A stretch of 64,000 nucleotides of DNA. Origin: Rhodothermus marinus DSM 4252 (GTDB lineage: Bacteria; Bacteroidota; Rhodothermia; Rhodothermales; Rhodothermaceae). Made by a program: the position numbers and the translations under genes. The stretch covers positions 314,001 through 378,000 of the forward strand of contig NC_013501.1 in assembly GCF_000024845.1 (NCBI RefSeq), read 5' to 3'. Position 1 is the stretch's first letter; the number at the start of each line of letters is the position of its first letter. Below the pieces are notes generated by a model. That model was not told where the DNA came from and did not search any database. It worked only from the letters and a program-made list of their open reading frames with translations. Below are positions 28,161 through 31,259 of this stretch, piece after piece.

Positions 28161-31100
28161 ATGGCTTTTCTGGCCGATCTGCACGTACACTCAAAGTACT
28201 CCCGCGCCACCAGCCGCGATCTGGATCTGGAGCATCTGGCGCTCTGGGCCTACCGCAAGGGCATCGCCGTCGTGGCCACGGGCGACTTCACACACCCGGC
28301 CTGGATGGCCGAAATCCGCGAAAAGCTCGTGCCCGCCGAGCCGGGCCTGTTCCGGCTGCGCGATGACCTGGACCGCGAGGCGCGCCGCCTGGCCGGAGTG
28401 CCCGTCATGACGCCCGTGCGCTTCCTGCTGGAGGTGGAAATCTCCACGATCTACAAGAAGGGCGACCGTGTCCGGAAAGTCCACCATCTCATCTACGCGC
28501 CGGATCTGGAAAAGGCCGAACGGATTCGCGAGGCACTCGGGCGCATCGGCAACCTGAACGCCGACGGCCGTCCGATTCTCGGACTGGACTCCCGCGATCT
28601 GCTCGAAATCACGCTCGAAGCGGGCGACGGATGCTACCTGGTGCCCGCGCATATCTGGACGCCCTGGTTTTCGGTGCTGGGCTCGAAGTCAGGTTTCGAT
28701 TCCATCGAGGAGTGCTACGGCGATCTGGCCGGGCACATCTTCGCCGTGGAGACCGGCCTGTCGTCCGATCCGCCCATGAACTGGCGGCTTTCGGCGCTGG
28801 ATCGCTACACGCTGGTGTCGAACTCCGACGCCCACTCGCCGGCCAGACTGGGTCGCGAGGCCTGCCTGTTCGACACCGAGCTGGACTATTTCGCCATCAA
28901 GCGGGCGCTGGAAACAGGGCAGGGCTACGGCGGCACCGTCGAGTTCTTTCCGGAAGAAGGGAAATACCACCTGGACGGCCACCGCGCCTGTGGCGTGCGG
29001 CTGGAGCCGTCCGAAACGCGGGCGCTGGGCGGCCGCTGTCCGGTCTGTGGCCGCCCGCTCACCGTGGGCGTACTGCACCGCGTCGAGGAACTGGCCGACC
29101 GCCCCGAGGGGACGCCGCCGGCGCGTCCCATGTCCTTCGAGAGCCTGATCCCCCTCGAAGAGGTGCTGGCCGAAATCGAAAACAAGGGCGCCCGAACGAA
29201 GGCCGTGCAGCAGCGCTACGAGCGGTTGCTCCGGACGTTCGGTCCGGAGTTGACGATCCTCCGGGAGGTGCCGCTGGAAGAGCTGCAACAGCGGGCGGGC
29301 TCGCTGCTGGCCGAAGCGATCCGGCGCATGCGGACCGGCGAGGTGATTCGCGAGGCGGGCTACGACGGGACCTACGGCGTCATCCGACTGTTCACCGACG
29401 CCGAGCGCAAGCAGGGCAACGCCGTGGGGCTGCTGTTCGACCTGCCGGAGCCGACACCTGCCCGAAAGAAACGCCCGGCCGCTTCCGAGCCGTCGCTGCC
29501 GCGTCCTTCCCGAATGGCCGAGCCGACCCCGCCGCCGCTCCACACACCGCCGCGCAACGGAAGCGGTGGGCTGCTTGTCGGACTCGACCCGGAGCAGCAG
29601 GCGGCCGCCACGTACACCGACGGGCCGGTGCTCGTGGTGGCGGGGCCGGGTACCGGCAAGACGCGCACGCTCACCTACCGACTGGCCTATCTGATCAAAG
29701 AGCGCGGCGTCGATCCGGCGCAGTGCCTGGCCGTTACGTTCACGCGCCGGGCTGCCGACGAAATGCGCACGCGCCTGCAGGCGCTGCTGGGCGAAGCGGC
29801 CGCCGACGTTACGGTGACCACCTTCCACGGCCTCGGTCTTGAATTGCTGCAGACCTACGGCGACCGGCTGGGGCTGCCGCAGCCGCTCCGGGTGGCGACC
29901 GAAGCCGAGCAGCGGGCCGTGCTCGAAGCGCAGGGCCTTTCGCCCACGCAGGCGCAGCGCCTGCTGCCCCGCATTTCCTACCGAAAACGAACGGGCCAGC
30001 CGGGCGACGAACGTCTGGAAACCACCTTGCAGGCCTACGACCGCGCCCTTCGCGAAAGCGGCCGCGTGGACTACGACGACCTGATCCGGCTATCCGTCCA
30101 GCTTCTGGAAGATCATCCGGACGTGGCGGACGCCTGTCGCGAACGCTTCCGCTGGATCGCCGTCGATGAGTTTCAGGATGTGGACGCCAACCAGTACCGG
30201 TTGCTCCGGTTGCTGGCGCCGGAAGCCGATGCCCGGCTGTTCGTCATCGGCGACCCGGACCAGGCGATCTACGGCTTCCGCGGCGGCGACGTGCGCTGCT
30301 TTCTCCAGTTTACCAGCGACTATCCGAAGACCCGTCAGGTGCTGCTCCGCCAGAACTATCGCTCGACGCAGGCCATTCTGGAAGCGGCCGCTCGGATGAT
30401 GGCGCGTGCTTCGCTGGTGCCCGATCGGGAGCTGGTGGCCGTGCGTTCGGGGGGCGTGCCCGTCGAGGTCGTGGCCTGTCCGAGCGAGCGGTCCGAGGCC
30501 ATTTTTGTGGCGGAAACAATCGAAAAGCTCATCGGCGGCACGTCGTATTATGCGCTCGACAGCGGCCGGGCCGACGGGGAGGAGCGCAGCTACACGTTCG
30601 GCGACGTGGCCGTGCTCTACCGTACCGAGGCGCAGGCGGCCGAGCTTCAGGAAGTGCTCGCGCAGGCCGGCATCCCCTACCAGAAGCGCAGTCACCGACT
30701 GCTGGCCGAGCTGCCGGAGGTCGAAGCGCTGCTGGCTTATCTGCAGGAAAATCCCAAAGGCCCGTTGGCCGAGCGCCTGGAGCGCTGGGCGGCAACAACT
30801 TCGGAGCGTGAGGCGCTACTCGGTGTGCTCCGTGCGCTGGCCGCGCAGTGCGGCGATGATCTCGAAGCCTTCCGAAACGAGCTGGCGCTTCGCAGCGAGG
30901 CGGACCTGTGGGATGCGCGGGCCGAAGGGGTATCGCTGCTGACGCTGCACGCGGCCAAAGGGCTGGAATTCCGCGTCGTGTTTATCGTGGGATGCGAGGA
31001 AGGACTGTTGCCGCTGACCTACGACGGCCGCGTCGATCCGGAGCAGGAGGCCGAGGAGCGCCGGCTGCTGTTCGTGGGCATGACGCGGGCGCAGGAGCGG

Positions 31101-31259
31101 CTTTTCCTGACGCATGCGCAGCGGCGACGCTGGATGGGCCGCGTACGCACGCCCGAGCCGTCGCGTTTTCTGGCCGATCTGCCCGCACGGTTCGTCCGCC
31201 GCAGGACCCACACCGTGCGTCGAAGCCCCACCGGCGGCCGCCAGCTGGAGCTGTTCTGA
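28161..31259 (+). CDS. fusion of endonuclease Q-like PHP nuclease and UvrD-type helicase
   Basis: A 1032-residue two-enzyme protein. Residues 1 to ~410 are a PHP domain of the EndoQ (COG1379) type: FLADLHVHSKYSRATS with the HxH pair at residues 8-10, VPAHIWTPWFSVLGSKSGFD, VSNSDAHSP, and a zinc ribbon with RACG and CPVCGRP. EndoQ nicks DNA 5' of deaminated bases and abasic sites. After a Pro-rich linker (~430-475) comes a complete SF1A helicase: VVAGPGTGKTRTLTYR, VDEFQDVDANQYRLL, GDPDQAIYGFRGGD, LRQNYRST, LHAAKGLEFRVVFIVGCEEG and LLFVGMTRAQERLFLTHA. The ATG at 28161 is where the PHP domain begins. It is probably a single-protein repair machine that incises and then unwinds. Confidence 0.9.
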   Translation: MAFLADLHVHSKYSRATSRDLDLEHLALWAYRKGIAVVATGDFTHPAWMAEIREKLVPAEPGLFRLRDDLDREARRLAGVPVMTPVRFLLEVEISTIYKKGDRVRKVHHLIYAPDLEKAERIREALGRIGNLNADGRPILGLDSRDLLEITLEAGDGCYLVPAHIWTPWFSVLGSKSGFDSIEECYGDLAGHIFAVETGLSSDPPMNWRLSALDRYTLVSNSDAHSPARLGREACLFDTELDYFAIKRALETGQGYGGTVEFFPEEGKYHLDGHRACGVRLEPSETRALGGRCPVCGRPLTVGVLHRVEELADRPEGTPPARPMSFESLIPLEEVLAEIENKGARTKAVQQRYERLLRTFGPELTILREVPLEELQQRAGSLLAEAIRRMRTGEVIREAGYDGTYGVIRLFTDAERKQGNAVGLLFDLPEPTPARKKRPAASEPSLPRPSRMAEPTPPPLHTPPRNGSGGLLVGLDPEQQAAATYTDGPVLVVAGPGTGKTRTLTYRLAYLIKERGVDPAQCLAVTFTRRAADEMRTRLQALLGEAAADVTVTTFHGLGLELLQTYGDRLGLPQPLRVATEAEQRAVLEAQGLSPTQAQRLLPRISYRKRTGQPGDERLETTLQAYDRALRESGRVDYDDLIRLSVQLLEDHPDVADACRERFRWIAVDEFQDVDANQYRLLRLLAPEADARLFVIGDPDQAIYGFRGGDVRCFLQFTSDYPKTRQVLLRQNYRSTQAILEAAARMMARASLVPDRELVAVRSGGVPVEVVACPSERSEAIFVAETIEKLIGGTSYYALDSGRADGEERSYTFGDVAVLYRTEAQAAELQEVLAQAGIPYQKRSHRLLAELPEVEALLAYLQENPKGPLAERLERWAATTSEREALLGVLRALAAQCGDDLEAFRNELALRSEADLWDARAEGVSLLTLHAAKGLEFRVVFIVGCEEGLLPLTYDGRVDPEQEAEERRLLFVGMTRAQERLFLTHAQRRRWMGRVRTPEPSRFLADLPARFVRRRTHTVRRSPTGGRQLELF

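Follow-up and report, generated by a model that had tools for sequence, protein, structure and literature searches.

A clamp-tailed endonuclease Q-helicase fusion in Rhodothermus marinus as a possible one-protein start to DNA repair

What would a single protein do with a nuclease for damaged bases at one end and a DNA motor at the other? The question is raised by a gene in Rhodothermus marinus DSM 4252, located within a stretch of 64,000 nucleotides (contig NC_013501.1, positions 314,001 to 378,000; hereafter the window, whose own numbering is used throughout). The gene encodes one chain consisting of an endonuclease Q (EndoQ) domain, a linker, a superfamily 1A (SF1A) helicase resembling UvrD, and a C-terminal peptide of the type that binds the bacterial sliding clamp. 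The reading towards which we lean, and which we hold to be somewhat probable, is that the product is a single-chain, clamp-tethered nick-and-unwind enzyme starting an alternative excision repair of deaminated bases and abasic sites. The parts of the gene are as follows.

28161..31259, forward strand: whole fusion gene, 1032 residues and a stop codon, EndoQ, linker, SF1A helicase and clamp-type tail (ORF translation, Pfam, phmmer and AlphaFold2)
28161..29405, forward strand: EndoQ domain, residues 1-415 (phmmer with PfuEndoQ, E 6e-50; VIA Z 45.1)
28182..28190, forward strand: HxH metal motif, H8 and H10 (37 and 38 of 38 fused proteins, respectively)
28437..28652, forward strand: span with the predicted catalytic zinc ligands E93, H108 and H164 (alignment with PfuEndoQ; 38/38)
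28749..28763, forward strand: predicted base pocket, E197-T-G199-L-S201 (alignment with G169 and S171 of PfuEndoQ)
28824..28835, forward strand: SDAH motif, residues 222-225 (D223 and H225, 38/38)
28980..29048, forward strand: zinc ribbon, H274-x2-C277 ... C293-x2-C296 (alignment of 38 fused proteins)
29421..29564, forward strand: disordered, fast-evolving linker, residues 421-468 (predicted local distance difference test score, pLDDT, <50; ratio of nonsynonymous to synonymous substitution rates, Ka/Ks, 0.21-0.47)
29571..31220, forward strand: SF1A helicase, residues 471-1020, with 1A, 1B, 2A and a much reduced 2B (PcrA, E 4.8e-92; VIA Z 40.0)
29643..29663, forward strand: Walker A motif GPGTGKT with K500 (38/38)
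30162..30179, forward strand: motif II, VDEFQD, with D669 and E670 (D669, E670, Q672 and D673, 38/38)
30534..30569, forward strand: insertion in 2A that PcrA lacks, containing the invariant residues G792 and G793 (alignment)
30750..30929, forward strand: residues 864-923, 60 residues at the position of 2B (135-160 residues in L098, L101 and L103)
31242..31256, forward strand: C-terminal QLELF, residues 1028-1032, a peptide of the beta-clamp-binding type (consensus match; Q1028 invariant in 38)

The fusion gene is real, intact and widespread. The first-pass annotation of the window had described one EndoQ-helicase chain of 1032 residues, and the open reading frame (ORF) is indeed single and contains no internal stop. 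That annotation would have been undone by a frameshift or an assembly join near residues 430-475. The frame is continuous there, the same gene is found in the six genus-mates returned by the profile search of relatives (four of them read whole), and 74 of the 80 nearest relatives are fused, which together rule out an artefact at the junction. The copies in genomes G005 and G006 end at short contigs, yet the junction is read through continuously in both. In comparisons with four genus-mates, the EndoQ half has Ka/Ks values of 0.036-0.076, the helicase half of 0.088-0.12. Because the ratio is low in both, both halves are in use and under purifying selection.

The N-terminal half is supported as an EndoQ-type nuclease whose active site is predicted from the alignment to be intact. 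Residues 5-411 match PfuEndoQ (5zb8) among PDB sequences, as they do 7k30-7k33, and the half superposes on 5zb8_B over 385 residues with a root-mean-square deviation (rmsd) of 2.8, thus reproducing the whole-domain fold of PfuEndoQ. E93, H108 and H164 are aligned with E76, H84 and H139 of PfuEndoQ, and D6, H8, H10, E197, D223 and H225 are present as well; with the exception of H8, these ligands are invariant across the 38 aligned fused proteins. Alanine mutants of E76, H84 and H139, each made singly, are reported to be inactive, and G169 and S171 of the PfuEndoQ pocket to be obstacles to thymine and adenine (PMC8307549). The corresponding G199 and S201 are invariant in the 38 fused proteins. 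In the zinc ribbon, C277, C293 and C296 are present in all 38 and H274 in 36, the other two having Cys; the ribbon is thus built of three Cys and one His, compared with the four Cys of PfuEndoQ. The claim of an EndoQ-type PHP domain with HxH, NSDAH and a zinc ribbon is therefore borne out, with an H-C-C-C ribbon, and a degenerate PHP domain, the other way in which the claim might have failed, is excluded by the metal ligands retained in the PfuEndoQ alignment and in the fused proteins. The score with the NCBIfam hypothetical equivalog TIGR00375 is 166.9 bits, below the cut-off of 326.6, and the protein is accordingly not assigned to that model.

The C-terminal half is matched by Pfam UvrD-helicase (E 4.1e-69) and UvrD_C (E 1.4e-37), superposes on UvrD of D. 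radiodurans (4c2t_D) over 523 residues with an rmsd of 2.6, and contains all of the SF1A UvrD-like motifs (Q, I, Ia, II, III, IV, V, and VI). It had been described as a full SF1A helicase; the fold and motifs justify the family, but the helicase is not complete, since little of 2B is left and the C-terminal domain has been lost. The match to PcrA is split into two stretches, separated by about 128 residues in PcrA (402-529) and by about 36 in the window protein. Motifs IV and V are 199 residues apart, whereas the host genome's two UvrD paralogues have them 276 and 266 residues apart; for residues 864-923, the AlphaFold2 model shows three helices (10-14 residues each) and one short helix. The PcrA match stops 18 residues short of the C-terminus, so that the C-terminal domain found in PcrA is missing. 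The motif IV-V distance could be measured in 106 of 112 fused relatives, of which 73 are short (<240) and the remaining 33 longer; 4 of these 106, versus 16 of 22 UvrD paralogues, contain a GIG-like motif. Besides lacking a full 2B and the C-terminal domain, the helicase scores below the equivalog cut-offs of pcrA (408.9 against 911.2 bits), rep (347.8 against 951.45) and uvrD (306.1 against 1144.45), so that it is not PcrA, UvrD or Rep proper. The insert in 2A has the consensus GGxSFxSxDSGR, with an invariant Gly-Gly, and is absent from PcrA; it is a possible marker of the fused helicase group.

The last five residues, QLELF, match the bacterial clamp-binding consensus Q-L-x-L-F (PMC4549789), and they are likely to dock the protein on the DnaN ring. 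A broad form of the motif was found within the last 16 residues of 107 of 112 fused relatives and in none of 24 UvrD paralogues (this count excluded locus-edge rows, the duplicates L248, L249, L250, L265, L269 and L276, and the fragments L066 and L275). In a second set of 113 fused proteins, from which locus run-offs, EndoQ matches ending before column 405 and L128-L137 were excluded, a narrower pattern was present within the last 12 residues of 80, a strict one within the last 12 residues of 50, and the broad one in 105; shuffling of the last 40 residues gave the narrower pattern in a mean of 0.7 of 113 and at most 5. The broad pattern was defined after the tails had been viewed, and all of these counts are of related proteins, so that they carry no probabilities. 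Support free of that late choice is given by the invariant Q1028 column (38/38), the shuffles and the 0/24 paralogues with the same broad pattern. The tail is also retained in all four split helicases (see below) whose end lies inside the locus: QLTLF in L076, QLSLF in L088, QASLF in L215, and QMNLF followed by two residues in L244. The narrower pattern occurs in 21 of 54 unfused EndoQs of the bacterial type. A published report states that bacterial EndoQ homologues, Bacillus being named, carry a clamp motif at the C-terminus, and that PCNA binds and stimulates archaeal EndoQ through its C-terminal motif (PMC4858679); no description of a clamp motif behind a fused helicase was found in the literature searched. 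The host's own DnaE carries the sequence QASLF within its C-terminal part. The frame of this DnaE (1629 residues, G000:C1:2237068-2241471; L278 and L279) has about 1.25 kb between its two profile matches, the second of which is preceded by the intein-like end VVHN-S, and DnaE probably contains an intein.

The AlphaFold2 model, computed with the 38 aligned proteins, has a mean pLDDT of 86.5 and a predicted template modelling score (pTM) of 0.57. The linker, at pLDDT <50, is the disordered part, and its Ka/Ks was computable in three of the four genus-mate comparisons.

How widely the fusion occurs was surveyed by a pattern-based scan of a genome collection, which gave at least 563 relatives in at least 591 stretches. 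The best 80 of these, being the nearest to the window protein and hence skewed towards fused forms, comprise 74 fused in one frame, 4 with no helicase in the flanking DNA covered (L034, L048, L049 and L070), and 2 split (L076 and L088). Both arrangements that the first-pass annotation had proposed to compare, fused and separate genes, are found, and its guess that the fusion might already sit in databases is confirmed by fused relatives in public genomes. Adjacent, separate EndoQ and helicase genes were found at five loci in all (L076, L088, L185, L215 and L244). In L088 (5484-8685) and L215 (reverse strand), the two halves lie in one frame with a single TAG between them, which in L088 falls inside the helicase Q motif at the position of Q480 in the window protein; the TAG may reflect recoding, read-through, a pseudogene or a sequencing error. 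The EndoQ-half frames of L117 (G081) and L118 (G075), from one family within the class, break at different points near residues 168-187, and these breaks may be errors or decay.

Matches to TIGR00375 were found in 7 of 60 relatives, all of the host's own genus, in 14 of 244 genomes of its class, all with frames of at least 840 residues, and in 14 of 394 genomes of a phylum sample, two of these being weak hits with short frames. In other groups, fused forms were counted by hand from open-frame length alone: the class of a Micromonospora genome has 37 matching genomes of 246, 31 of them with frames of at least 757 residues; the phylum of L088 has 125 of 249, at least 27 of them with a frame of at least 847; and that of L101 has 133 of 198, at least 51 of them with a frame of at least 875. 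All of the long frames that were fetched, 13 of the 27 and 20 of the 51, proved to be fused. The stand-alone form prevails in Bacillota-like genomes. By record titles or ranks, fused members occur in about 14 phyla: that of the host, that of L088, Planctomycetota, Verrucomicrobiota, Pseudomonadota, Binatota, Myxococcota, Actinomycetota, Elusimicrobiota, Melainabacteria, Chloroflexota, Gemmatimonadota, Thermodesulfobacteriota and KSB1; many of these members are metagenome bins, and single phylum labels may be wrong.

It had been proposed that the fusion benefits a thermophile. Fused relatives include Micromonospora, Frankia, gut Gastranaerophilales and termite-gut Endomicrobiellum, lineages that are mesophilic, and in the Micromonospora class most of the matching genomes have frames of fusion length (31/37). 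Since many of the fusion-bearing lineages are mesophilic, heat is doubtful as the driver, and the proposed reason is probably wrong. The host genome additionally matches the UDG and EndoV families, which tells against the same proposal; for this genome, a role of the fusion as a stand-in for a missing UDG or EndoV is excluded.

The trees point to a plausible route from two neighbouring genes to one. They were thinned at 82% identity for EndoQ and at 62% for the fused helicases, and the EndoQ tree includes about one in four of the Bacillota-type stand-alone rows. The EndoQ phylogeny, built by FastTree from 128 domains, has stand-alone proteins on its deepest bacterial-type branches. One clade of 93 rows (support 92) takes in every one of the 76 fused rows together with 13 stand-alone and 4 split ones; the fifth split locus, L185, is placed just outside. 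The fused state requires 15 changes on this tree, where gain is indistinguishable from loss, and this number fits one or few fusion gains followed by many losses. In the helicase tree, 24 ordinary UvrD proteins lie on one side of a branch (Shimodaira-Hasegawa-like approximate likelihood ratio test, 94), and the other side holds 64 fused helicases, 5 split ones and 1 free one. Support for the deep forks is weak (75), and the split helicases L185 and L244 adjoin the UvrD side. The separate EndoQ of L244 ends in QLSLF. The free helicase, L251 (591 residues; G1227:C144:2908-4623), matches the window helicase half from 4 to 562 and ends in QGSLF, a tail outside the tail pattern counted above; its genome also holds, on another contig, a stand-alone EndoQ with the tail QKTLF (L245). 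This helicase was found in a search of 22 genomes, 16 of them chosen for a stand-alone EndoQ. Among the matches listed, only G1227 has a free, short-frame helicase matching end to end; G540 has a 659-residue frame, G1143 gave no helicase match at 1e-20, and the other matches look like ordinary UvrD/PcrA or partial relatives. It is the existence of split neighbours, of EndoQs with their own clamp tail and of a free helicase that makes the two-gene path to the fusion plausible. Locus L210 (G799:C112:40000-55000) holds two bacterial-type EndoQ genes, one fused and one stand-alone, about 10 kb apart and oppositely oriented, and the two are neighbours in the tree.

How, then, might the parts work together? 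In the favoured nick-and-unwind reading, QLELF would first dock the protein on the DnaN ring. The EndoQ half would next flip out a uracil, a hypoxanthine or an abasic site and nick just 5' of the lesion, leaving a 3'-OH and a 5' end that bears the lesion; incision immediately 5' of the lesion is what has been reported for EndoQ (PMC4357722, PMC6202378). In the third step, the helicase half would load on the intact strand at the nick and displace the lesion strand, which would come off as a 5' flap. Having lost most of 2B, it may act as a monomer to which the nick is handed over by the fused nickase, in a manner that we liken to the activation of PcrA by RepD and of UvrD by MutL; deletion of 2B activates the Rep monomer, as MutL and RepD activate UvrD and PcrA (PMC13238157). 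Finally, a polymerase would fill in from the 3'-OH, and flap removal and ligation would complete the repair, while the clamp would keep the enzyme stationed at forks or at patches under repair and deliver the 3'-OH to the polymerase. The second step is the surest and the first is likely; the coupling in the third is the least certain. SF1A helicases move 3'-5', and a motor of this polarity displaces the lesion strand only from the intact strand, which is why loading on that strand is predicted; in mismatch repair by MutL and UvrD, the motor likewise loads on the intact strand. That the helicase half would unwind from the nick is a sound inference.

The retention of the EndoQ catalytic and pocket residues and of the helicase motifs, together with the adjacent split halves at five loci, speaks for this reading. 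So do the low Ka/Ks of both halves, the one-frame fusion in 74 of 80 relatives, the clamp-type tails and the QASLF of DnaE, the stimulation of archaeal EndoQ by PCNA, and the reported activation of Rep, UvrD and PcrA. Several points weigh against it. On the nicked strand, a 3'-5' motor would move away from the lesion. The distribution is patchy (7/60 relatives; 14/244 in the class). Stand-alone EndoQ is common, fusion-length frames making up at least 27 of 125 and at least 51 of 133 matches in the two phyla above, and it occurs inside the fused clade as well; the fusion is therefore not needed everywhere. With UDG and EndoV families in the same genome, the fusion is not the sole answer to deamination. 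By the narrower pattern, the clamp tail is found in 0 of 30 Bacillota-type stand-alone EndoQs; the longer 2B region in 33 of 106 fused relatives means that loss of 2B is not family-wide; the pTM of 0.57 leaves the relative placing of the two domains unfixed; and the proposed chemistry is itself a prediction from sequence and model. A more comprehensive version, which we offer tentatively as a possibility, is a glycosylase-free, one-chain route found in about 14 phyla and hitherto unstudied, in which the clamp-bound EndoQ would nick and hand the nick to its own de-repressed, 2B-poor UvrD motor, and which would have arisen stepwise, from a stand-alone EndoQ with a clamp tail through a neighbouring helicase gene to the fusion.

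The alternative that survives best, unlikely though we consider it, keeps the lesion nickase and assigns the motor to delivery or clearing: it would translocate on single-stranded DNA at forks or gaps, or strip proteins so that EndoQ can scan, and strand displacement after the nick would be left to other enzymes. SF1A monomers are translocases, a clamp tail places the protein at forks or repair patches, and a long disordered linker need not couple two sites. The monomer or dimer nature of the active helicase is debated (PMC13238157). Against this alternative, 2B is lost in 73 of the 106 fused relatives measured, and it is by this very change that Rep becomes active as a helicase (PMC13238157). 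It is improbable, in our judgement, that the two halves are uncoupled repair enzymes of different steps, merely kept together in equal amounts by the fusion. The disordered, fast-evolving linker and the recurrence of stand-alone and split relatives would suit such an arrangement; the retention of the fusion across about 14 phyla (by record title), neither active site having been lost, would not, and the separation of these helicases from ordinary UvrD, with the C-terminal domain gone and 2B reduced, looks like specialisation.

The surroundings of the gene bear on a further alternative. Directly 5' of it is one more feature:

27954-28044: tRNA-Ser (GCT)

By their translations, the ORFs 5' of the gene read as ATP synthase subunit genes, those flanking it on either side as atpG and queE, and the opposite-strand ORFs that face it (31265-33115, reverse strand) as queE, queC and queD. 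In four genus-mates the gene lies at the same place, close to two genes for ATP synthase (neighbour clusters of 309 and 193 residues). A survey of 92 loci, covering up to about 6-7 kb on each side with crude ORF calling, gave no conserved operon or defence island, the widest neighbour family outside Actinomycetota and the host genus occurring at 5 of the 92 loci (L032, L038, L048, L051 and L077). A search of plasmid and phage collections by tblastn gave no match at E 1e-3, records near the host genome possibly lying outside its coverage, and a plasmid or phage gene thus finds no support. Nor is there a sign of SOS control: GAAC-N4-GTTC, with at most one mismatch, occurs in 11 of 125 regions upstream of fused genes versus 10 of 125 shuffled ones, and in 3 of 85 upstream of unfused genes versus 6 shuffled. 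A Gabija-like nuclease and helicase for defence against phage or invading DNA containing uracil or other deaminated bases is accordingly a poor candidate. In its favour, Bacillus EndoQ may act in antiviral defence too (PMC8307549), and the helicase half is hit by PADLOC profiles for GajB (best 288.9 bits), as expected of a UvrD-like motor. Against it, no cross-phylum neighbour exceeds 5 of 92 loci, the place near two ATP synthase genes is constant, plasmid and phage records gave no match, and a clamp tail on a protein under strong purifying selection is in keeping with housekeeping.

The EndoQ-helicase fusion is uncharacterised in the literature searched, although its sequences are already public. 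The earlier remark that its biochemistry is poorly described agrees with the absence of any paper on the fusion in that search, outside which lie the 2017 Bacillus pumilus EndoQ and 2021 structure papers; no PDB chain with both domains is among the matches listed (50 and 29 rows). Four features had no place in the first-pass annotation: the tail of clamp type, the reduction of 2B, the breadth of the distribution and the existence of split forms. The fusion may be an overlooked one-protein start to DNA repair. For the events after EndoQ incision, the 2015 discovery paper drew strand displacement and helicase removal as alternatives (PMC4357722), and the occurrence in nature of a clamp-tailed EndoQ-helicase protein suggests a concrete order for them. 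For autoinhibition by 2B in SF1A helicases, the family amounts to an experiment of nature; for bacterial groups in which EndoQ has barely been studied, it offers a way into the repair of uracil and hypoxanthine.

Compared with the known EndoQs (PfuEndoQ and those of Thermococcus, Methanosarcina and Bacillus), the window protein has the same fold, catalytic ligands, pocket residues and zinc-ribbon position, and, like archaeal EndoQ with its PCNA-type motif, a clamp-type motif at its C-terminus; it differs in being fused to a helicase, in its H-C-C-C ribbon and in its score below the TIGR00375 cut-off, and in the tree it belongs to a bacterial branch well separated from the archaeal and Bacillota-type stand-alone enzymes. 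With PcrA, UvrD and Rep, its helicase shares the motifs and the 1A, 1B and 2A fold, whereas the much reduced 2B, the absence of a PcrA-type C-terminal domain, the clamp tail, the 2A insert, the separate tree branch and the scores far below the equivalog cut-offs set it apart. Gabija (GajA-GajB) also combines a nuclease with a UvrD-like motor, GajB chains matching at E of about 5e-12, but in the window protein the nuclease is an EndoQ, fused to the motor, and the neighbours read, by translation, as ATP synthase and queuosine-type genes. A likeness in working, and in working only, would exist to RepD-PcrA and MutL-UvrD, in which a partner activates an SF1A helicase (PMC13238157); unlike in these two-protein systems, nickase and motor here share one chain, and the nick would be directed by the lesion.

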